From Candidatus Omnitrophota bacterium (lineage in GTDB: Bacteria; Omnitrophota; Gorgyraeia; Gygaellales; Profunditerraquicolaceae): a stretch of DNA of 12,445 nucleotides. A program made the translations under genes and the position numbers. The notes under the pieces are model-generated. The model was not told the origin of the DNA. It saw only the letters and a list, made by a program, of their open reading frames with translations, and did no database searches. Within the stretch, counting starts at the first letter, position 1; each line of letters opens with the position of its first letter. This document shows positions 1 to 8,381 of this stretch, in pieces. Location: NCBI GenBank assembly GCA_023818905.1, contig JAMWDE010000005.1:1-12445 (forward strand), written 5' to 3'.

Positions 1-1328
1 CCTTTTTCGGTAAGATATGTAGTGAAGTTTCTGTAAATTTCTGAGTCGGGAACATTTAATGCACTATATTCATCCAACTCATGCTGGAAGAGCAACTTTA
101 ACAATTCCTCTTGTTCAGGTGGTGATTTGTTCTTTAACCCTTCTAAGAACGCTTCGTGAATATATATCGTTGCATCTCCTTGTGATAAATTAACTTGCAT
201 TGTAGCTAACGCCCAAGCATCTTTCTGTATCAAGGCTGGACTTTTGCTTACACGAAATTTTATATTTTTTATTTTGGCTTCCTTAAGTTTATCAGAAATT
301 TCTTTAGTTTTAAATTTGTCTTTCATAATTTCTAGCAGTTTACCATATCTTTTCCGTTGTTCTTGGACACTGAGCAACATTTCTTCTTTTTCACCCTTAA
401 ACAATGCTATTAGTTTTTGTGCTTCTGATATTGCTGGGTCTTCAAGAATTTTTATAAGATTTGACACTTGTTGAATTGGTGGTGTTGTTTTTAGTTGTTT
501 TAAAATATTATATTCTAACGAAATCTGTGGAACTTCTTTTTTCTTTTCACCTATTATATCTGCATAATCTGGATTAGCAGTTATATATTTTTCAATAGAT
601 TTTGGTAATAATGCCAATCCTTTTGTTTCACCTTTGCCTGAATATGCGTTCCTTATCGCTGTAGATGACGCAGCAAAATTTTGTCCTCTGAATGTAGCTA
701 AATCTATACCTGCCTGCCTTACCTTATCAATGGACTTACCATGGGCAGAGCCCTTTGTAGAATAACTCAAAAAGGCAACCGCGGGTTTAAAATCTAAAAC
801 CCTCTGTGCCAATTCTGCAGATTCAACTGCAATAAATGCGAGCTGTTGTGCATCTGGTTCAGGGATAATTCCGCAATCAGCAAAGATAAATGTACCATCT
901 TCCCCATAATCTGGTTTATCCAAAATCATAATAAAAGCACTACAAGCAATCTTCCATCTCTCATCCACTCCCAAGCAGTATATTGCAGCCCTGGCTACAT
1001 CAGGTGTGGTATGCGATGCGCCTGCCACAAAACCATCTGCCTTACCTTCTCTAACCATCATTGAAGCATAATAAAGTGGGCTCTCAAAAATCTTTGTGGC
1101 AATACTCATATCCAAACCTTTGTGCCTACGCAGTTGATAGAATTCCCGAATGTATCTTTCTTTCTCCTCTGGATTTATCTTATCTTCTGTAAGAAGTAAA
1201 ACCCGAGCAATTCCTTCTGCTTCAATGATCTTAGCTGCCTCAACTACCCTTCTATCTTCTGCTTCAGGAAGGACTATAGTTTTTAACTGAGATCTTGCCT
1301 TTAAACGCAACTTTTTAATCGTATCCAT
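1..1328 (-). CDS. Chimeric phosphotransacetylase-like protein, C-terminus beyond window
   Basis: The reading frame opens at ATG 1328-1326, directly after the stop of the preceding gene and behind an AAAGGG ribosome site. It stays open for 442 codons to the window edge, so the 3' end is missing. Residues 1-206 match phosphate acetyltransferase (acetyl-CoA + Pi to acetyl phosphate + CoA): TIVLPEAEDRRV near 17-28, an AGASHTTPDVAR segment near 102-113, and STKGSA then DKVRQA at 190-206. At about residue 206 the similarity stops. The family's remaining ~115 residues, with the late VNDLSRG-type motif carrying the catalytic Ser-Arg, are absent. The frame instead continues with SSTAIRNA and LLPKSIEKYI (221-250), resembling the C-terminal motif of NadD/NMNAT-type nucleotidyltransferases. 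A lysine-rich helical stretch follows (about 260-360), then a segment with HELDE at 416-420. Base composition also drops (hand count 14/60 G+C at 241-300 against 32/60 at 961-1020). Transacetylase activity is unlikely for this product as read. It is either a true fusion or an assembly join. Confidence 0.8.
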   Translation of the reverse strand, partial: MDTIKKLRLKARSQLKTIVLPEAEDRRVVEAAKIIEAEGIARVLLLTEDKINPEEKERYIREFYQLRRHKGLDMSIATKIFESPLYYASMMVREGKADGFVAGASHTTPDVARAAIYCLGVDERWKIACSAFIMILDKPDYGEDGTFIFADCGIIPEPDAQQLAFIAVESAELAQRVLDFKPAVAFLSYSTKGSAHGKSIDKVRQAGIDLATFRGQNFAASSTAIRNAYSGKGETKGLALLPKSIEKYITANPDYADIIGEKKKEVPQISLEYNILKQLKTTPPIQQVSNLIKILEDPAISEAQKLIALFKGEKEEMLLSVQEQRKRYGKLLEIMKDKFKTKEISDKLKEAKIKNIKFRVSKSPALIQKDAWALATMQVNLSQGDATIYIHEAFLEGLKNKSPPEQEELLKLLFQHELDEYSALNVPDSEIYRNFTTYLTEK

Positions 1329-2417
1329 TCATATCCCTTTCAACAAGCGCTCCAGGTCTACATAATCTTTAACCAAACCAACTACCTTATTTATCTTATC
1401 GATATCCTTAGGTCTAATCTTAACTGTAATATCGTGAACCTTAGAAGCTACCGTATAAGTATCATATTTAGCCAAAAGAACTGCTACTTCTGATTGATTA
1501 ACTAAATCCATAACTGACGGTTGAGGGATGATGCCTCCAGTCAAAATCATCCCTGAAATTCTAAGCCTCTTAGGATCGTCCTTCCTAAAACAATTCAAAA
1601 CTGCTTTTATTATATCCTCTCTGTCTCCAGGAGTAATTATCAAGCTATCATTTACAATATATTTTAAGGCCTCTTTGGGCTGCATTGCTCCTACTATAAC
1701 ACGGGCTACAATGTTCTCTAAGTAAGATTTTCCGCTGAGTAAAGTAAAATCGGTCTCCTCTAATATCTGCTCTATGGTAGGCCAGGATAGCTCAGGTTGA
1801 TATGGAATAGCACCTAAAACATTTACGCCTTTGCGAGATAAACCCTTTCTTATTAGTTTATTTATCTTATCAAATTTTTCTGGTAAAACCTTGTTGATAA
1901 TCACTCCTAAAACTTTTACTCCTTTTTTCTCAAAGAGGGTTTTGTTTAAAACTATCTCATCAATAGGTCTACCAATACCACCCGAAGATATAATGATTAC
2001 TTTGGAACCCAAAAGCTTTGCTACATAAGCATTAGAATGGTCAAATACCGAACCCACGCCAGCATGCCCGGTACCTTCAATAACCACTAAATCCTGATCC
2101 TTAGACACATGGCGAAATGCCTCTTTGATCTGGTTAGTAATAGAATTTTTATCTGGATGTTCTATATACCTCTCAGTGAACCCTTTCTCCACAGCTACCG
2201 GACTCATATCTTTCAATCCGCACTTTATACCACAAACCTCCTCAATCAGCAGAGAATCTTCATCTACCTTAAGGCCGTCTTCCTCAAGATATCGCTGACC
2301 AATAGGTTTTATAAAAGAGATTTTCTTAAACCTATTTTTCAAATTAAGTATTAGACCTAAAGAGACTGTAGTCTTGCCGTCATTCTGACGAGTAGCAGCG
2401 ATAAATATCTTTCTCAT
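1329..2417 (-). CDS. BioD-like P-loop / DRTGG domain protein (Pta N-domain homologue)
   Basis: This 362-residue protein corresponds to the non-catalytic N-terminal part of long enterobacterial-type phosphotransacetylases, here encoded as a separate gene. Residues 1-225 form a dethiobiotin-synthetase-like P-loop domain. It has ATRQNDGKTT at 8-17 as the nucleotide-binding loop, an EGTGHAGVG segment at 114-122 and a GVIINKV strand at 171-177. Residues about 230-345 form a DRTGG domain with VGAMQPKEALKYI at 242-254, GDREDI at 264-269 and LTGG at 292-295. In long Pta enzymes this half is thought to be regulatory rather than catalytic. The ATG follows the thioredoxin stop (TAG) without a gap. The stop (TGA) is followed at once by the ATG of the phosphotransacetylase-like gene, so the three are probably co-transcribed. 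A role as an allosteric partner of the downstream transacetylase is inferred; that partner looks broken here. Family assignment is firm, exact role unknown. Confidence 0.85.
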   Translation of the reverse strand: MRKIFIAATRQNDGKTTVSLGLILNLKNRFKKISFIKPIGQRYLEEDGLKVDEDSLLIEEVCGIKCGLKDMSPVAVEKGFTERYIEHPDKNSITNQIKEAFRHVSKDQDLVVIEGTGHAGVGSVFDHSNAYVAKLLGSKVIIISSGGIGRPIDEIVLNKTLFEKKGVKVLGVIINKVLPEKFDKINKLIRKGLSRKGVNVLGAIPYQPELSWPTIEQILEETDFTLLSGKSYLENIVARVIVGAMQPKEALKYIVNDSLIITPGDREDIIKAVLNCFRKDDPKRLRISGMILTGGIIPQPSVMDLVNQSEVAVLLAKYDTYTVASKVHDITVKIRPKDIDKINKVVGLVKDYVDLERLLKGI

Positions 2418-2738
2418 CTAAAGATTCTCTTCTATTTTTGCTTTGAGTTCAGACTTATTTAAGGCACCTACCAGCTGCTGTATTATCTTACCATCCTTAA
2501 AGAATATAAGCGTGGGTATAGACATTATACTGTATTGGGTAGCGATTCGGTTGGCTTCATCCACATTTATTTTACATATCTTTATCCTTCCTCTATACTC
2601 CTCAGCTAACTCTTCTAAGATAGGTAACAGTATCTTGCAAGGACCACACCAAGGCGCCCAAAAATCCACTAAGATTATCAAATTGGGCTCAAGTACTTCC
2701 TTATTAAAGTTTGCTTCGTTTATCTCTACAATAGACAT
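2418..2738 (-). CDS. trxA: Thioredoxin
   Basis: A 106-residue thioredoxin, the normal length for the family. It is a cytoplasmic dithiol reductant for ribonucleotide reductase, peroxiredoxins and other targets. The active site WCGPC lies at residues 30-34 (C31, C34) after VDFWAP. The buried Asp of the family is at D25 and the cis-proline is in SIPTL (P75). The frame can be extended upstream to 2813, but that extension (25 residues beginning MLAKNIYLCY) has no thioredoxin similarity and overlaps the likely promoter, so ATG 2738-2736 is chosen. There is no Shine-Dalgarno sequence before this ATG; the upstream bases are CCATATAATAAA. The stop TAG abuts the next gene's ATG, implying one transcript with the DRTGG and phosphotransacetylase-like genes. 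Confidence 0.95.
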   Translation of the reverse strand: MSIVEINEANFNKEVLEPNLIILVDFWAPWCGPCKILLPILEELAEEYRGRIKICKINVDEANRIATQYSIMSIPTLIFFKDGKIIQQLVGALNKSELKAKIEENL

Positions 2739-2977
2739 TTTATTATATGGAATGTAGATGGCTAATAGGTTGGTTTTTATAAAATAACACAAATATATAT
2801 TTTTGGCAAGCAATTTTAGAACAGACTCACCTCGTTACGGCTCCATTCTGTATGTTATCTCACTGCTTCTACCTTTAGAATGCGAGACAACCTTTAAACT
2901 CGACACCAGATACACTTTAACTCAGCTCAAAGGCTAATTTGAGATAGGGTTTGGAAGATGGTCTTAAACTCAACCAT
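2739..2977. other. Non-coding gap between propeller gene and trxA
   Basis: These 239 bases are the longest non-coding stretch in the window. They hold the predicted trxA promoter and a short perfect inverted repeat at 2926-2943 (CTCAAA, six-base loop, TTTGAG). The repeat has no T-run after it on the minus strand, so it is a poor intrinsic terminator. No tRNA-like fold (no TTC-loop signature), small ORF with a ribosome site, or recognised riboswitch was seen. Confidence 0.6.
2781..2809 (-). promoter_or_regulatory. Predicted housekeeping sigma promoter for trxA operon
   Basis: On the minus strand TTGCCA (2809-2804; 5 of 6 to TTGACA) is followed by 17 bases and TATTTT (2786-2781; 4 of 6 to TATAAT). 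A TG sits one base before the -10, giving an extended -10. Transcription would start near 2774, leaving a leader of about 35 bases before the thioredoxin ATG. It lies in a non-coding gap, as expected for the start of a new operon. Prediction from consensus only. Confidence 0.5.
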
Positions 2978-4597
2978 TCAATATTTAGGATTTAGATTAG
3001 GCTCAAGTTGTAGCTGTCGAGAGAAGTAACCTCCGGTTAAGGCATCCAACATTGCGGTTAATTCCTGTATCTTTAGTTCCTTTTCGCATCTCTTATTTTT
3101 ATCTTGAAATGGAAGGTTGAGTAACTCCATTTTAATTCTTAGGCGTTCAAAGTATATCTTGGTTACCTCATCCAAGATATCATCGCGCAGTTGAACCATA
3201 AGACGAGAACGCACATCAATATTGGTCTGGTCATCACTCCAAATCAAATCACCCAACTCCCAGGTCAGAGAGATGCTCCAATTCCTATTTCTATAGTTAG
3301 TGGTATCATCCGGACCAACAAAATATTTCCCAGGATTACAATTTGTGCCATAAGTCCCCCATATACTATTTGAAATTGTTTTGTTTTTATCATAATCCAT
3401 ATCAATGCTAAGTCGAGGTAATAATGCTCGCTTAGCTGCCTGCCTACGCCACTGTTTTATCTTTTCTGGAGATACCTCTGCGTACTCTATCGCTGCCTGG
3501 TGTACCTCTCTAATCCCTGGCTCTCCTTTGATATAGGGAGCCAACACATCGTATTTGTCGTCTTGGGATAATAGTGCCAAATTAGCCTTAAATAGCCCTT
3601 TATCTGTGGCAGCATATAGGTTATCTTGATTATCTAAGGCTAAACCATTTATCTTTTTTACCATCAATCTCAACGATAACTCCTGCCACCTCAACTCTTC
3701 CTCATCAAATCTAAATATACCTGATTCTGTGGCTGCATAAAGATTGCGTTTACTAGATACAAAGAGAAATCTTACATCTCTACTGAGCAAACCCTGGGAT
3801 GATAAAGGTTTCCAGGTTTTTCCATCATCTTCGGTTTTATAGACACCCTTTTGGGTAGAAAGATAGAGTACCCCTGAATTATGAGGGTCAATACTTATGT
3901 ATCTTAAATCAGAACAACTTGCTGAATCTGGGTGATCTTCTAGTGTATCCTCTAACAAAAATTTATCTTTATCATCCTCTGAAAGATGAGCGGTAAAAAT
4001 CTTATCCCAGAGACCAGCCTTAGCTCTAAAAACTCCTTCTGTATTTGCTAAATATATCTGGGCTGAGCCAGATCCTTCTAATCTATAGGCAATAGCTAAA
4101 ACCGGAATATCTGCCAATATACCAGGGTCTTTATACCAGTTCCTGCCATCATCTTTTTTAATTTCTTTACTTAAAAATAATCCTGCACGTGTGCCTAAGT
4201 AAATCTGATGGGGTAAAACCGCGATACTAATGCAGTTATCCTCTAGTCTGTTTTTGCCTTTAAAAACCCTCCTCCAGTGTCTACCTTGATCATCACTAAA
4301 GTATAAGCCCTTCTCAGTAGCAGCATAGATAGAATTACCTTCATCCCTATCGAATAAAAGAAAATTAACCTTACCTTGACTAAACAAAATATTTCTCCAG
4401 GTCTGGCCAGCATCTTCAGTTTTAAAGACTCCTCTGCTTGAGCCCACATAGATGATATCTGGATTATCTGGATGTAGCGTAACTGCACTGATGTCTGTTA
4501 ATTCTTGACTAATCTGCCTCCATACCAAATCCTCAGCAAAGCAGTTCAGGGTAATAATAAAAACTAACCATATCGCCAATGTAATGTATCTTCTCAT
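2978..4597 (-). CDS. Exported beta-propeller (Ycf48/BNR-like) protein with conserved C-terminal domain
   Basis: A 539-residue protein from ATG 4597. A GTG three codons upstream (4606) overlaps the AGGAGG ribosome site, whereas the ATG sits 8 bases after GGAGG, so the ATG is preferred. The N-terminus (MRRYITLAIWLVFIITLNCFA) is a clear signal peptide, probably cleaved before EDLVW. Numbering from the GTG, residues about 27-341 carry repeated blades of the type IYVGSSRGVFKTEDAGQTW, IYAATEKGLYFSDDQGRHW, LYLSTQKGVYKTEDDGKTW and NLYAATDKGLFK. I count about seven, as in sortilin/BNR or Ycf48-like propellers. After a linker, residues 366-530 form a second domain with ALLPRLSIDMDYD, WSISLTWELGDLIWSDDQ and a long helix containing RSRLMVQLRDDILDEV and IYFERLR, ending ELTAMLDALTGGYFS. 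This tail faintly recalls outer-membrane TolC-type proteins, but I cannot assign it. The gene has its own promoter-like element, shared with the anti-sigma gene of the same island. A periplasmic or outer-membrane sensor/scaffold role is inferred. Confidence 0.8.
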   Translation of the reverse strand: MRRYITLAIWLVFIITLNCFAEDLVWRQISQELTDISAVTLHPDNPDIIYVGSSRGVFKTEDAGQTWRNILFSQGKVNFLLFDRDEGNSIYAATEKGLYFSDDQGRHWRRVFKGKNRLEDNCISIAVLPHQIYLGTRAGLFLSKEIKKDDGRNWYKDPGILADIPVLAIAYRLEGSGSAQIYLANTEGVFRAKAGLWDKIFTAHLSEDDKDKFLLEDTLEDHPDSASCSDLRYISIDPHNSGVLYLSTQKGVYKTEDDGKTWKPLSSQGLLSRDVRFLFVSSKRNLYAATESGIFRFDEEELRWQELSLRLMVKKINGLALDNQDNLYAATDKGLFKANLALLSQDDKYDVLAPYIKGEPGIREVHQAAIEYAEVSPEKIKQWRRQAAKRALLPRLSIDMDYDKNKTISNSIWGTYGTNCNPGKYFVGPDDTTNYRNRNWSISLTWELGDLIWSDDQTNIDVRSRLMVQLRDDILDEVTKIYFERLRIKMELLNLPFQDKNKRCEKELKIQELTAMLDALTGGYFSRQLQLEPNLNPKY

Positions 4598-4606
4598 CTT
4601 TACCAC

Positions 4607-4650
4607 CTCCTACTATAATAGACGTAGAAAGTGGAAAAATCTAACACGAA
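4607..4650 (-). promoter_or_regulatory. Two-block promoter-like element, copy 1 (propeller gene)
   Basis: Read on the minus strand, block 1 is TTCGTGTTAGATTTTT (4650-4635), then 8 unconserved bases, then block 2 TACGTCTATTATAGTAGGAG (4626-4607). Block 2 merges into the ribosome site of the propeller gene. A second copy with identical spacing lies before the anti-sigma gene (7713-7756): block 1 matches 15/16, block 2 20/20, and the spacer only 3/8. GTGTTAG and CGTC are 16 bases apart, the geometry of ECF sigma promoters. TTAGAT with TATTAT (18 bases) could instead serve a housekeeping sigma. The inferred mRNA leader is short. Confidence 0.55.
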
Positions 4651-4669
4651 TTTTTTAATTTTTGTCCAC
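4631..4669. repeat. Imperfect inverted repeat around copy-1 block 1
   Basis: On the plus strand GTGGAAAAAT (4631-4640) pairs with ATTTTTGTCCAC (4658-4669), 10 bp with a two-base bulge. It encloses most of conserved block 1. It is absent from copy 2, so if real it would be an operator or hairpin specific to the propeller gene. AT-rich arms make chance likely. Confidence 0.25.
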
Positions 4670-4783
4670 ATATAGGTTGAGATAGACTGAGTATCTTGGT
4701 GTCTGGTTAAATTTAGCTTGAGGTCATAATTGAGAAATGATGTATGGAAGGGTATAGATGAATGGGGCTACTGTATATTACAC

Positions 4784-6988
4784 TCAATCTAACTGCAATA
4801 TTTCCTGTTTTATCTGTTGATAATGAGGTGTATCGATTTTGCTATAAATCTCCTGCGCCAAACGAAGATATTCTTTGGCTCTATTGCTCTTGCCTTGCTG
4901 TTTATACAATAACCCTAAGTTGTAGTAGCTGGAGGCTAATTCTAAAGGACCATCTATCTGCTTAGAAATCACAACAGCTTGATTAAAAAACCTTTCTGCT
5001 TCAATAAAGTTATCCATCTGAAAATACAGCTCACCTAACATGTTATAATCACTGGCAATGTTAGGTTGATCTCCATGCAATTGGTCAATCTTTAAACCTC
5101 TTAGGTAGCAATCCAATGCCTTCTGATACTGCTTCTCAAATAGATAAATCTCTCCCAGATTAAAATAATAGTCACTGAGTTCTCCTTTTAGATCCAATCT
5201 CTCAAATAACGCTCGACTCTTCTGATAAAACTCCTTGGCGGTAACAAAGTCATCCTTCTCAGTAAACAGTAACCCTAAGTCAAAATAATCACAGGCCAGA
5301 TTATACCTGTATCTGTAGGAGTTCTGCCCGCAGCGATTTATCTCTGAACTCTTAGTAAGTAATTCTAATGCCTGCGTATAATCTTGTTTATCTATATACC
5401 AAACTGCCAATCTTCTTAAAGCAAAAGCCTCATTAAGCTTATCCCTATTCTGCCTGCTTAGATTTACCGCTTTATTATAAAATTCAAATGCCTTGGGATA
5501 CTCTCCCAAGTTCTGGTAGACCCAAGCGATATCAATATATGCGCAGGCCAAACTTTTTAAGTCCTGCCTCCTTTCGCTAAATAGGGCATAATCAAAATAA
5601 TACCTTAAGGCCTCTTTTCTCTTGCCCATACGTTGATACGTCTCACCTAACAAATGGTGAACCTCCAAAAACAAAGGTTCTTTACGCGCGATCTGACTAC
5701 AGATTGCAATAACCTCTTGATTCTTGCCTTTTGAGAATAATCTTTTTGCCTTTGCGAATAAAATATAGGTATTGGGATTTAAGGTAGGTAGCCAACAGTA
5801 AAATCCAAAAACCAAAGTTAATACTGCGATTAACAAAGCCAATCTTAGAGTTACCCTTTTATAGACTGAAATATCTCTTTTAGGCCTTAACGTCTCTACC
5901 TGAGGTCTTGATGTCAGTCCAAACAAACTAAAATTAGGGTCACCGTAAAGAAGATAGCTTATCCAATACATATTGTCTAGTCCGTATCTTTTAACCAACT
6001 GCATCCGGGCTAAACGCACACACTCTCCTACAGGCTTTGACTCTAAAAGACGACTGTAGAACTCCTCGGCAAAAGCCAAACTTACCGTATCCTCTACCTT
6101 ACAGATTGAGCCTATATAATGTCTTACTCCAGAAAACAAAAATGCCGAAGCCAAACTATAGGATTTCTGTTGATAGTCCAAATCCATTAAGTTGAACTCC
6201 TGAACCTGGGCAGACTGACAGGCGTTAGAAAAAACCAGAATCGGTAGATACGGACTTTGCCCCAAAGATAAGACATCTTTAATGGTAAACCTACCATCAC
6301 TTAAAACCCAACCGCTCATCTGGGGATCATCTCTATCGTATTGGCAATGTCCAGCAAAATGCACGATATCGTAATCACGTAGATTCTTTTTCAGATACAG
6401 TATATCTATAGAGGTAGATTTAAAGTCAATCTTAACCTGGCTCCTCCTTAGGTCAAACTGGTTTTTGATAAATAAACCTTCTCGATAAGCAGAATCCAAG
6501 TCGCCAGTAGGATTTGAAAGGACCAGCATCTTTAAGGGGAGCGTTTGACTACGGTACTTAACCGGTCCGAGATAATCCTTTGCCCGAACCAACCTACCTA
6601 AATTAAACTTAAGACACAAGAATTCCTCTGAGTTGTAGAGAAGTTCCCAGGGGATATAGATGAGTTCCTCATCTAAAGATAGAACCAGATTTTTAATGTT
6701 TGTGGAATTCAGTCTGTCTTTGACTGAGCGAGTCAAAAGATGGTCCCATAAGACTTGACCTATCTTTTTTAGCTCATTTATCAGTTCAGGTTGTTCAAAT
6801 TGTTTTTTATATATCCTATTTATAACTAACGTCATCTGCTGACATAACTTATCAACCTCACCAAAATCTACGCTACATTGACTGTAGTGTTTTATAGTAG
6901 ATGTAGGCTGATGTGATTCATATAGACTCATACTTAATTGGCTATTGTGTCTGATAATCTCTAAAACCAAAGATTTTATCTCTTGCAT
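4784..6988 (-). CDS. Membrane CHAT protease with C-terminal TPR array
   Basis: A 734-residue protein, ATG 6988 behind AAGGACA, 8 bases after the anti-sigma gene. Domains in order: an N-terminal region (1-100); a CHAT caspase-like peptidase domain (about 100-355); one transmembrane helix (about 381-400, LALLIAVLTLVFGFYCWL) preceded by a basic stretch (RPKR...YKR); and eight TPRs (about 405-718, e.g. YYNLGLLYKQQGKSNRAKEY). The CHAT dyad is present: His in IVHFAGHC (H210/H214) and Cys in FSNACQSA (C257). The usual HG after the catalytic His is HC here (C215). A YLLYGDPNF motif near 346-354 is the normal end of CHAT domains. By the positive-inside rule CHAT faces the cytoplasm and the TPRs the periplasm. 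Many CHAT proteins carry their TPRs on the N-terminal side, so this order is notable. Position next to sigma and anti-sigma genes suggests it processes the anti-sigma or another regulator after a periplasmic signal. That substrate is inference. Confidence 0.88.
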   Translation of the reverse strand: MQEIKSLVLEIIRHNSQLSMSLYESHQPTSTIKHYSQCSVDFGEVDKLCQQMTLVINRIYKKQFEQPELINELKKIGQVLWDHLLTRSVKDRLNSTNIKNLVLSLDEELIYIPWELLYNSEEFLCLKFNLGRLVRAKDYLGPVKYRSQTLPLKMLVLSNPTGDLDSAYREGLFIKNQFDLRRSQVKIDFKSTSIDILYLKKNLRDYDIVHFAGHCQYDRDDPQMSGWVLSDGRFTIKDVLSLGQSPYLPILVFSNACQSAQVQEFNLMDLDYQQKSYSLASAFLFSGVRHYIGSICKVEDTVSLAFAEEFYSRLLESKPVGECVRLARMQLVKRYGLDNMYWISYLLYGDPNFSLFGLTSRPQVETLRPKRDISVYKRVTLRLALLIAVLTLVFGFYCWLPTLNPNTYILFAKAKRLFSKGKNQEVIAICSQIARKEPLFLEVHHLLGETYQRMGKRKEALRYYFDYALFSERRQDLKSLACAYIDIAWVYQNLGEYPKAFEFYNKAVNLSRQNRDKLNEAFALRRLAVWYIDKQDYTQALELLTKSSEINRCGQNSYRYRYNLACDYFDLGLLFTEKDDFVTAKEFYQKSRALFERLDLKGELSDYYFNLGEIYLFEKQYQKALDCYLRGLKIDQLHGDQPNIASDYNMLGELYFQMDNFIEAERFFNQAVVISKQIDGPLELASSYYNLGLLYKQQGKSNRAKEYLRLAQEIYSKIDTPHYQQIKQEILQLD

Positions 6989-6996
6989 TATTGTCC

Positions 6997-7707
6997 TTAT
7001 ACCTTTATATCCAGTAACACAGAAGCAATCTTGCGCTCAAGACTAAATATGTCAATGGTATATCTACCTATTAAGACATGCTCAAATACAACCTTACCGG
7101 CATCGGTAAGGTAGGATTCAAGCTCTATATTATCTTTGATAAGTGTGACTCTCAAATCCCTGATTTCCTTCTGGGTCTGTTTTTCTCTTGTTGTCAACAT
7201 CAAACTAAATTCACCCTTGCCTTTACTTTCTACCTTTGCCTCCAGGGTCATATCCCCCAAATCCTTTAGGATGGCTATCTCATCTTTAAAATCCTTTATA
7301 TGTCGACTACGTAACACTGGAGCAGGTAGCAATTCCTGTCCCCATAAGACATCACCTGTGGTACTAATAAGCTCTAACATCTTCTCTTTTAACCTTAAAA
7401 ATATCTCCAAAATGACTGTCTTTTCTTCTGTGGGTTTTACCAGGATTTTCTTTGCAAGCTCCAGGATGCCCTCAGGAATATCTATCTGTTGACCGGAAGC
7501 CAGGTTTATCTGTAAGGCAACCGATTCAGCACAGTCTTGACAATTTATTAGATGTTGCTTAACTTGCTCTGCTTCTCCTGGAGATAGTCTATTCTCCACA
7601 AAACAAACGAGGGTCTCTTCATCAGGATGCAAGACTTCTCTGGCCATCTTTTCTGATTTCCATCTTCTGTAAATAAACCTGATTATCTTTTCTATTCTAT
7701 CTGTCAT
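6997..7707 (-). CDS. Zinc-finger (zf-HC2-like) anti-sigma factor, soluble
   Basis: A 236-residue protein starting at ATG 7707 behind AGGAGAGG. Residues 27-62 contain HPDEETLVCFVENRLS and HLINCQDC (H52, C56, C59), the HxxxCxxC zinc-binding motif of ZAS/zf-HC2 anti-sigma factors, with an upstream His at 27. Anti-sigma proteins of this type usually hold their sigma factor inactive through this N-terminal domain. Many continue into a transmembrane helix; none is seen here. A helical linker spans about 80-120. Residues about 140-236 look beta-rich, with ELESYLTDAGKVVFEHV and IGRYTIDIF, like carboxypeptidase-regulatory/FN3-like sandwiches. It sits 31 bases after the sigma gene and 8 bases before the CHAT gene, and the promoter-like element lies immediately upstream. 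Anti-sigma function for the adjacent sigma is inferred from motif plus position. Confidence 0.8.
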   Translation of the reverse strand: MTDRIEKIIRFIYRRWKSEKMAREVLHPDEETLVCFVENRLSPGEAEQVKQHLINCQDCAESVALQINLASGQQIDIPEGILELAKKILVKPTEEKTVILEIFLRLKEKMLELISTTGDVLWGQELLPAPVLRSRHIKDFKDEIAILKDLGDMTLEAKVESKGKGEFSLMLTTREKQTQKEIRDLRVTLIKDNIELESYLTDAGKVVFEHVLIGRYTIDIFSLERKIASVLLDIKV

Positions 7708-7712
7708 ACCCT

Positions 7713-7756
7713 CTCCTACTATAATAGACGTAAAAACATCAAAAATCTAACGCGAA
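7713..7756 (-). promoter_or_regulatory. Two-block promoter-like element, copy 2 (anti-sigma/CHAT genes)
   Basis: Block 1 TTCGCGTTAGATTTTT (7756-7741) covers the last codons and first stop base of the sigma gene. Block 2 TACGTCTATTATAGTAGGAG (7732-7713) lies in the gap before the anti-sigma ATG and includes its ribosome site. The 8-base spacer differs from copy 1 at 5 positions, although most of the flanking blocks are identical. It would drive the anti-sigma and CHAT genes separately from the sigma gene. Partial coding overlap of block 1 could also reflect a duplicated gene end. Confidence 0.5.
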
Positions 7757-8347
7757 ACCTCTATGTTTAAAGCATTCTCTAAGTCTTCTGATAATGCGGG
7801 CCTTGCGCATATCCAAAGCACTACGAGAAATCCTTAAAACCTTGCTCATCTCCTCCAGACTTAACCCCTGATTCAGATACATCTCTAAAAAATACTTCTC
7901 CTCTGCCTCTAGTTCTTCGATGCAATCCTTTAGATAATCTAATTTCTCTCTAAACACAATTTCATTTGCACAAGAAACCTCCTCATCTGCAAGTATATCT
8001 TTTAGACTAATGCCTTCTGGATTATCTTCATCTAATGAAACTGTTGGCTTCAATTTACGCAAGTAGTCTATGGTTAGATTGATGGTTACCTGTCTCAGCC
8101 AAGAGGCTAGACTACAACCATTCTTTGCCTTAAAACTCTTTAATTTTCTGTAATCGTCTCTTACCAGACTGAATAGTACGTCTTGGAAGATATCTTTTAC
8201 AGTATCTAGATTTATAAAAGAAGTGGTTTTTGTTTTTAAGATATGATAAATACAGCTGTAAATAAGACGGGAGTATCTTCTGGCGAATTCGTTCCAGGCG
8301 TCTGTGTCAGATTTTACACAGCGCTGAACAAATTCCAAATCATTCAT
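7739..8347 (-). CDS. ECF-like sigma-70 family RNA polymerase sigma factor
   Basis: A 202-residue two-domain sigma factor. Region 2 spans about 5-100: FVQRC..SDTDAWNEFARRYSRLIY, then DIFQDVLFSLV at 52-62 and SLASWLRQVTINLTIDYLRK at 79-98, which bind core polymerase and the -10 element. A short acidic linker follows (about 105-130). Region 4 spans about 132-192, with the helix-turn-helix GLSLEEMSKVLRISRSALDMRKARIIRRLRE at 161-191 for -35 recognition. No region 1 or 3, as expected for ECF-type factors. ATG 8347 has a rather distant AAGGTGG ribosome site (8366-8360, 12 bases). The adjacent zinc-finger protein is the probable anti-sigma. The C-terminal codons overlap block 1 of a promoter-like element also found upstream of the propeller gene, so self-regulated transcription of the island is plausible. 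I could not place it in a numbered ECF group. Confidence 0.92.
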   Translation of the reverse strand: MNDLEFVQRCVKSDTDAWNEFARRYSRLIYSCIYHILKTKTTSFINLDTVKDIFQDVLFSLVRDDYRKLKSFKAKNGCSLASWLRQVTINLTIDYLRKLKPTVSLDEDNPEGISLKDILADEEVSCANEIVFREKLDYLKDCIEELEAEEKYFLEMYLNQGLSLEEMSKVLRISRSALDMRKARIIRRLRECFKHRGFALDF

Positions 8348-8353
8348 AATGCT

Positions 8354-8381
8354 ATTATACCACCTTCAACAAAAAATCAAA
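8354..8381 (-). promoter_or_regulatory. Candidate promoter close to the sigma gene start
   Basis: On the minus strand TTTGAT (8381-8376), 16 bases, then a perfect TATAAT (8359-8354). Transcription from it would begin around the ATG at 8347, giving a leaderless message. Yet a ribosome site AAGGTGG (8366-8360) lies inside the spacer and would be usable only from a promoter further upstream. One of the two signals is therefore probably fortuitous. Confidence 0.3.

Follow-up and report, generated by a model that had tools for sequence, protein, structure and literature searches.

A putative receptor-protease sigma switch in Omnitrophota with a proposed role in natural transformation

Four consecutive genes on the minus strand of a 12,445-nucleotide stretch of Candidatus Omnitrophota DNA (assembly GCA_023818905.1, contig JAMWDE010000005.1; the whole stretch is called the window below) encode, in order, an extracytoplasmic function (ECF) sigma factor, a zf-HC2 anti-sigma factor, a CHAT domain joined through a transmembrane helix to TPRs, and an exported beta-propeller, an arrangement that raises the question of what these genes do together and what they would turn on. 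A preliminary description had located all four genes correctly and had read them as one self-contained signalling island; the genes are indeed consecutive, but they are not equal partners, as three appear to build a switch and the fourth to be one of its targets. The island also holds two promoter-like sites that were absent from that description (Table 1). From comparison of sequences in the window and its relatives, we consider it probable that the first three genes together make up a receptor-protease sigma switch by which natural transformation is turned on. The genome of the window is a 1.1-Mb assembly, 65% complete, with a single CHAT match.

Conservation of the gene order in relatives had been set beforehand as a check on the preliminary description, and the order of the first three genes is kept. 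Among the 128 genomes of the order (Gygaellales), the CHAT half was found in 102 (E 1e-10) and a close sigma factor in 99 (E 1e-20). Across 384 genomes of the phylum, a CHAT gene lies immediately downstream of the anti-sigma gene, on the same strand, at 75 of the 80 strongest anti-sigma places (two contig-split genes count twice here, and the weaker rows are mostly zinc domain only); the remaining five are contig ends or partial, and G220 shows the start of a CHAT gene at the contig end. Seen from the other side, 75 of 89 CHAT places have such an anti-sigma, and four more lie at contig ends. A search of named genomes with the anti-sigma only returned 46 loci, 40 of them with the full sigma–anti-sigma–CHAT succession; of the other six, two end before the CHAT gene, one starts after the sigma gene, and L135-L137 are the most distant and different. 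The zinc domain and the CHAT domain are separate neighbouring genes in the window and in the 75 cases. A second lineage, with large genomes rich in GC, also has relatives of the anti-sigma; 9 of the 11 adjoin a CHAT gene, in every instance divergently (11 of 12 rows were counted, the weak G474 row, with stops, being excluded); by our own estimate the chance of CHAT adjacency is about 2% per gene (31 CHAT matches in 11.4 Mb). These second-lineage anti-sigmas align across the zinc domain and the beta-sandwich and have invariant zinc ligands (H3, C5, C34, C37), and the CHAT gene of L135 has a different build, CHAT-AAA-TPR. Judged by gene order and domain content, the sigma/anti-sigma/CHAT unit is a conserved Omnitrophota module, real and old.

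The sigma gene was correctly recognised in the preliminary description as ECF-like, since its product scores 77.9 bits against TIGR02937 (cut-off 42.9), and its best solved relative is SigW in 5wuq (E 2.7e-6). With the type III-E sigma model NF041236 it reaches 36.4 bits, below the cut-off of 100. Upstream of the sigma gene, TATAAT occurs in 31 of 43 regions compared with 38 of 476 control ORFs (open reading frames), and the longer TGNTATAAT in 22 of 43 compared with 11 of 476. In 31 of 34 listed rows (window positions 8345–8362 and 33 relatives), TATAAT or a near form ends 6–9 nt 5' of the sigma start codon. As the -10 element of the window ends 6 nt before the ATG, the sigma mRNA is probably leaderless, and as this promoter is of the housekeeping type, the sigma factor should be made constantly.

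The anti-sigma gene directly follows its ECF sigma gene, with a promoter site in the gap. Its product matches PF13490 barely above the cut-off (22.8 versus 22.2 bits), and the H-x3-C-x2-C zinc motif (H52, C56, C59) is kept in 50 of 50 rows. Profile comparison gave two weak matches, to DdvA in 8rlz (E 0.0083) and to RsiW in 5wuq (E 0.05), and hence sigma and anti-sigma match the two chains of 5wuq, the second of them weakly. A transmembrane anti-sigma was looked for by hydropathy in the window protein and the aligned rows, and no membrane helix was detected: the maximum is 0.95 in the window protein, and just two of 50 rows reach 1.6, with 1.66 as the highest value. The protein is thus, as first described, a soluble HxxxCxxC zinc-finger protein. 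In the C-terminal beta-sandwich, which follows the helical zinc domain, all of 44 aligned rows, including two of the second lineage, keep R186, S198, G214 and Y216, and on alignment this domain is a shared hallmark of the anti-sigmas across both lineages. We infer that the anti-sigma binds and holds the sigma factor.

The third gene matches PF12770 with 115.1 bits (cut-off 24), and TPR families were also matched. A single hydrophobic helix separates the CHAT and TPR parts in 42 of 43 rows; the absence of such a helix in homologues, named beforehand as a refuting observation, was therefore not found. Lysine and arginine number 239 on the CHAT side of the helix and 71 on the TPR side, the CHAT side being richer in 40 of 43 rows and never the reverse, and by this charge excess the CHAT domain is cytoplasmic and the TPRs lie outside the inner membrane. 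The TPR part of the predicted structure is good, and over residues 407–733 the model shows 17 helices, that is, eight TPR pairs and a cap, in agreement with the eight TPRs behind one helix of the preliminary description. The outer part varies among distant members: L082, L171 and L172 have F5/8 type C sugar-binding domains after the helix, L081 and L170 have different TPR sets there, a Pfam scan of L168 and L173 gave no match beyond CHAT, and L167 has almost nothing C-terminal of the helix. Since the outer domain differs while CHAT, helix and anti-sigma stay, the protein looks like a receptor with exchangeable sensor domains.

Whether the CHAT domain would act on the anti-sigma by cutting it is the point on which the strongest alternative differs. 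The same switch and regulon could operate with a CHAT domain that holds and releases the anti-sigma through the beta-sandwich, by allostery or partner switching, or that cuts another protein. Cleavage of the anti-sigma is what we infer. A non-cutting CHAT domain would be suited by the beta-sandwich, the shared hallmark noted above, and by the lack of a long disordered linker in the anti-sigma: residues 71–98, although of low confidence in the model, can be aligned to the last part of RsiW. Against this, the proposed catalytic residues His214 and Cys257 are kept in 43 of 43 rows, as the preliminary description would lead one to expect, and both can be recognised by eye in each of the nine distant CHAT sequences that extend far enough. 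As a pure scaffold would have no need of both residues, such a role is disfavoured, and we regard a non-cutting CHAT domain as unlikely.

With the switch outlined, the question becomes what the sigma factor would recognise. The two boxes before the anti-sigma gene have the layout of an ECF promoter, at fixed spacing, and conform to the consensus GTKAGATT-N13-CGTCWATT. With at most one mismatch, the site was found upstream of the anti-sigma gene in 39 of 48 cases, of the propeller in 25 of 35 and of the sigma gene in 1 of 42, and upstream of the CHAT gene in none of 52; a reversed control pattern was not found upstream of these genes with up to two mismatches (0 of 48 for the anti-sigma). Of 68 sites, 65 have 15 nt between GTTAGA and CGTC, and three have 16 nt. 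Exact sites occur in 113 of the 128 genomes of the order; the reversed pattern has an exact match in none of the 128. Outside the family of the window (Profunditerraquicolaceae), exact sites are present in 7 of 7 genomes with the module versus 3 of 13 without it, the three holding eight sites (six in G061, one each in G069 and G076). Outside the order but in the same class, boxes resembling these can be made out by eye between the sigma and anti-sigma genes of L168, L169 and L170; none were seen by eye in the stretches inspected for L082, L171, L172 and L173, and only the second box in L167. CGTC is a common -10 core of ECF promoters, and it is this sigma factor that would recognise GTTAGA-N15-CGTC.

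The genes that follow the site point to DNA uptake. The window genome has three exact sites, before the anti-sigma gene, the propeller gene and, on another contig, comEA-comEC. From the matches listed we drew a sample of 70 loci, 30 as returned and 40 chosen from part of the matches listed for nine genomes (sites previously placed before anti-sigma or propeller genes were omitted), merged identical targets to 66 and used a simple score to choose the first gene, at a distance of at most 260 nt. By eye, these 66 first genes comprise 9 ComEA, 8 YifB/ComM, 6 RecA, 1 DprA, 4 methyltransferases, 6 propellers, 3 anti-sigmas, 5 ORF6N and 24 others. Thus 24 of the 66 are ComEA, ComM, RecA or DprA, and HMM (hidden Markov model) scans of 17 of these 24 agree, with YifB (TIGR00368), RecA (TIGR02012) and DprA (TIGR00732) above curated cut-offs. 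ComEA was recognised from its HhH domain and from its gene lying ahead of comEC; ComEC (PF03772), likewise above its curated cut-off, directly follows it in 6 of 6 scanned cases. DNA-uptake and DNA-processing genes therefore share the site, as members of a competence regulon should.

A general envelope-stress response, or a response to mobile elements or of defence, of which the DNA-uptake genes were a mere part, would account for the 29 of 66 first genes that are neither known competence genes, methyltransferases, propellers nor anti-sigmas. Targets identified besides the competence genes include a methyltransferase, Vsr, SpoVG, ORF6N, BrnT, Gp49, a Y1 transposase and a Cas3-like protein, and an HtrA-like gene follows recA in L272. 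Against such a response stand the 24 competence genes and the constant succession of comEA and comEC, and a chaperone or envelope set was not conspicuous by eye in the sample; we hold it to be improbable. As separate observations, ORF6N-, BrnT-, Gp49- and Y1-transposase-like genes follow the site, partly as judged by eye, in L267, L283, L293, L296, L308, L265, L251, L286, L294 and L305, as though a DNA-uptake regulon had taken in mobile or toxin-antitoxin-like genes; a Cas3-like gene follows it in G006 (L279:150-2600); and one of the six sites of G061 precedes a ComEA-like gene (L247, by eye).

The propeller, of Sortilin-Vps10/BNR type and with a hydrophobic N-terminus, was described at first as a signal-peptide beta-propeller; type and N-terminus stand, and its start is most likely the ATG at 4597 rather than the GTG at 4606 within AGGAGGTGG from which the ORF (2978–4606) was called. 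It occurs in 111 of the 128 genomes of the order, some of them with neither sigma nor CHAT found. Among the 90 genomes that have both propeller and CHAT (the window genome excluded), the propeller lies within 7.5 kb of the CHAT gene in 47, farther along the same contig in 10 and on a different contig in 33, some assemblies being fragmentary. Nine propeller genes out of the 43 not shown to be linked were fetched from module genomes, and all nine have the two-box site just 5' of the gene. In genomes of the order outside the family and without the module, the site was found before none of 11 propellers; these 11 are all the propeller-bearing genomes of that kind, and L228 among them aligns only from residue 358, with its start unplaced. 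From its upstream site, the propeller is a likely sigma target. Between the CHAT and propeller genes of G029, a c-di-GMP-I-GGC riboswitch was also detected (L044:10161-10249, plus strand; 59.3 bits, gathering score 59).

At the propeller and at other genes starting close to the site, the promoter spacer is complementary to the Shine-Dalgarno (SD) sequence. In the window, the predicted hairpin hides the whole SD, with an exposure of 0.00 versus 0.79 in an RNA starting after the CGTC box. Over 28 propeller sites, pairing of the spacer with its own SD has a mean energy of -14.7 kcal/mol versus -11.7 kcal/mol with those of other genes (0 of 5000 permutations), and the same covariation is seen for the 27 sampled near targets, with starts at most 40 nt from the site (0 of 3000), and for the 22 of them that are not propellers (0 of 3000). 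When the farther starts (36 of 63 non-anti-sigma targets, e.g. most RecA and ComM) were permuted separately, no covarying pairing was detected (1031 of 3000), nor was any at anti-sigma sites (3352 of 5000). At 18 propeller loci, mean SD exposure falls from 0.67 to 0.20 when the spacer is included. The pairing and its covariation suggest that the spacer probably silences read-through RNA; the anti-sigma gene, with no covarying pairing, is as it would have to be if made from read-through.

This pairing would also suit a site that is a regulatory RNA, or that is read by some other factor, the module being merely one target, and so would the eleven genomes that have exact sites but in which no module was found (eight in the family, plus G061, G069 and G076). 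The spacing of 15–16 nt is kept, however, at anti-sigma sites that lack covarying pairing, which argues against an RNA aptamer, and an Rfam search at the site in four sources gave no match at the gathering score. Moreover, the -10 core is of the common ECF kind, and the site tracks the module outside the family, both in the genome counts and before the propeller, so that we judge another reader, or an RNA, to be quite improbable. Weakest is the original four-part chain with the propeller as periplasmic sensing partner of the TPRs, which we reject as very improbable: the propeller is exported by its N-terminus and often near the CHAT gene, but it occurs without the module, is unlinked as far as shown in nearly half of the genomes, and is itself a likely target, so that it falls outside the switch.

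A number of observations weigh against the switch and regulon as we propose them. Ten of the 89 CHAT places in the phylum are without such an anti-sigma. In the second lineage, the His of the H-x3-C-x2-C motif of the window is missing, a Pfam scan of the L135 anti-sigma matched no family, and 2 of the 11 anti-sigmas (the sigma/anti-sigma pairs L136 and L212) have no adjoining CHAT gene, though near relatives have it. The CHAT part of the receptor model is poor (pLDDT mostly 35–65) and gives no three-dimensional view of the active site. Exact sites occur in eight family genomes, 65–93% complete, in which neither sigma nor CHAT was found (G036, G020, G028, G380, G017, G329, G423 and G234); in two of these, G028 (82% complete) and G380 (75%), a site precedes the propeller gene. 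The six exact sites of G061 (94% complete) likewise occur with neither sigma nor CHAT found. Conversely, five module genomes have no exact site (G409, G007, G043, G038, G003), three of which have a site with one or two mismatches before the anti-sigma gene (L037, L055, L065). ComEA reaches the TIGR00426 cut-off in one of four scanned cases, the copy of the window genome being below it, and the 29 first genes of other kinds belong here as well. Finally, SD exposure falls with the spacer at 31 anti-sigma loci too (0.50 versus 0.82 without it), which weakens the contrast with the propeller.

The receptor-protease switch that we favour would work as follows. The housekeeping polymerase would transcribe the sigma gene constantly, and read-through would supply the anti-sigma, which would hold the sigma factor, and the CHAT receptor. 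An exchangeable sensor, here the TPRs, would read a signal outside the inner membrane and activate the cytoplasmic CHAT domain, which would then cut or disable the partner anti-sigma. The freed sigma factor would recognise the GTTAGA-N15-CGTC sites and raise anti-sigma and CHAT, closing the loop, and at the same time turn on comEA-comEC, comM, recA, dprA, a DNA methyltransferase and the propeller, through which there may be feedback. At targets whose start is about 20 nt from the site, where the spacer pairs with the SD, only RNA started at the sigma promoter would be translated. A broader proposal, which we put forward tentatively and rate just short of even, is that natural transformation is controlled from the outside in throughout the order: a receptor with a caspase-like protease as its cytoplasmic half would, by a single cut, free a pre-made competence sigma factor, the anti-SD spacer would restrict translation of uptake genes to sigma-started RNA, swaps of the sensor (TPR, sugar-binding or none) would tune the trigger, and the propeller would be an unrecognised competence protein.

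Several known systems resemble parts of this scheme. As in DdvA (PDB 8rlz, 8rot, 8rw5), which we take to be the Myxococcus protein paired with DdvS, an anti-sigma zinc domain is linked to a CHAT domain; 8rlz is named 'Antisigma factor DdvA' and 8rot 'CHAT domain-containing protein' in the PDB, and the CHAT profile of the window matches the C-terminal CHAT of 8rot weakly (E 0.25). In DdvA, zinc domain and CHAT form one 991-residue chain, whereas here they are two proteins and the CHAT protein is a membrane receptor. Because DdvA, with CHAT and anti-sigma, is already in the PDB, a link between CHAT and sigma control is not new in kind; what the present system adds is its division into two proteins, with CHAT in a membrane receptor, and the competence regulon. 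In Craspase (type III-E CRISPR Csx29/Csx30/RpoE), a TPR-CHAT protease acts on a substrate that restrains an ECF-like sigma factor, so that there too a CHAT protease acts on a sigma brake; unlike the present system, Craspase is RNA-guided and soluble, has its TPRs before the CHAT domain and is not known to include a zf-HC2 protein, and the window sigma falls well short of the III-E sigma model, as given above. SigW-RsiW and other site-1/site-2 systems share the ECF sigma with a zinc anti-sigma, as the 5wuq matches show, but here the anti-sigma has no membrane helix and the protease is the membrane part. ComX is a dedicated competence sigma factor that likewise drives DNA-uptake genes; it is made on demand, in contrast to the constitutively transcribed ECF sigma, with its presumed anti-sigma, proposed here. 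Ribosome-binding-site hairpins of the kind found at phage T4 gene e likewise mask the ribosome site in read-through RNA and leave it free in transcripts of the inner promoter; in the present case, the role of anti-SD strand falls to the promoter spacer, which recurs across the regulon.

Omnitrophota are abundant and almost uncultured, and for the regulation of gene transfer in such lineages the sites offer a concrete regulon (comEA-comEC, comM, recA, dprA and the propeller), with the propeller as a candidate DNA-uptake protein. The switch suggests how these bacteria may decide when to become naturally transformable. If true, it would join the ideas of DdvA and Craspase, a CHAT protease on a sigma brake, in the form of a membrane receptor with exchangeable sensors; and the anti-SD promoter spacer would, provided that it acts in the proposed way, be a simple means of silencing a regulon against read-through.

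Table 1. Features of the island, in window coordinates
Feature	Position	Strand	Basis
Extended -10 promoter TGGTATAAT, 6 nt before sigma ATG	8354..8362	-	TATAAT frequency versus control ORFs
ECF-type sigma factor gene, 202 aa	7739..8347	-	TIGR02937 above cut-off; SigW 5wuq as top solved match
ECF-type promoter site GTTAGATTTTTGATGTTTTTACGTCTATT for anti-sigma/CHAT genes, -35 box in sigma 3' end	7723..7751	-	Pattern scan, relatives
Soluble zf-HC2 anti-sigma with C-terminal beta-sandwich, 236 aa	6997..7707	-	ORF, PF13490, alignment, model, hydropathy
Zinc-binding anti-sigma domain, residues 28-70 (H52, C56, C59)	7498..7626	-	PF13490 match, conservation
Beta-sandwich domain, residues 99-235	7003..7413	-	Predicted structure, pLDDT about 96
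CHAT-TM-TPR receptor protease (TM, transmembrane helix), 734 aa	4784..6988	-	ORF, PF12770, TPR families, model
CHAT domain, residues 75-350 (His214, Cys257), cytoplasmic side	5939..6766	-	PF12770, alignment, topology
Single transmembrane helix, about residues 376-403	5780..5863	-	Hydropathy, model
Eight TPRs, outer (periplasmic) side, presumed sensor	4790..5776	-	TPR families, topology, model
ECF-type promoter site GTTAGATTTTTCCACTTTCTACGTCTATT of propeller gene	4617..4645	-	Pattern scan, relatives
Predicted hairpin, promoter spacer (anti-SD) versus propeller SD, -18.6 kcal/mol	4596..4640	-	Feasible only in read-through RNA
Exported beta-propeller, likely sigma target, corrected ATG start	2978..4597	-	ORF, family match, upstream site, N-terminus

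The large genomes G407 and G408 (11.4 and 10.1 Mb) contain 31 and 23 CHAT matches, respectively. Around the island, with flanking genes named by eye, LipB-, LPD- and MDH-like genes lie 5' of the sigma gene, and thioredoxin and PTA-type genes lie 3' of the propeller. The latter, a thioredoxin and two PTA-type genes at window positions 1–2813, also follow the propeller in many relatives, a neighbourhood that is kept and apparently unrelated to the switch.

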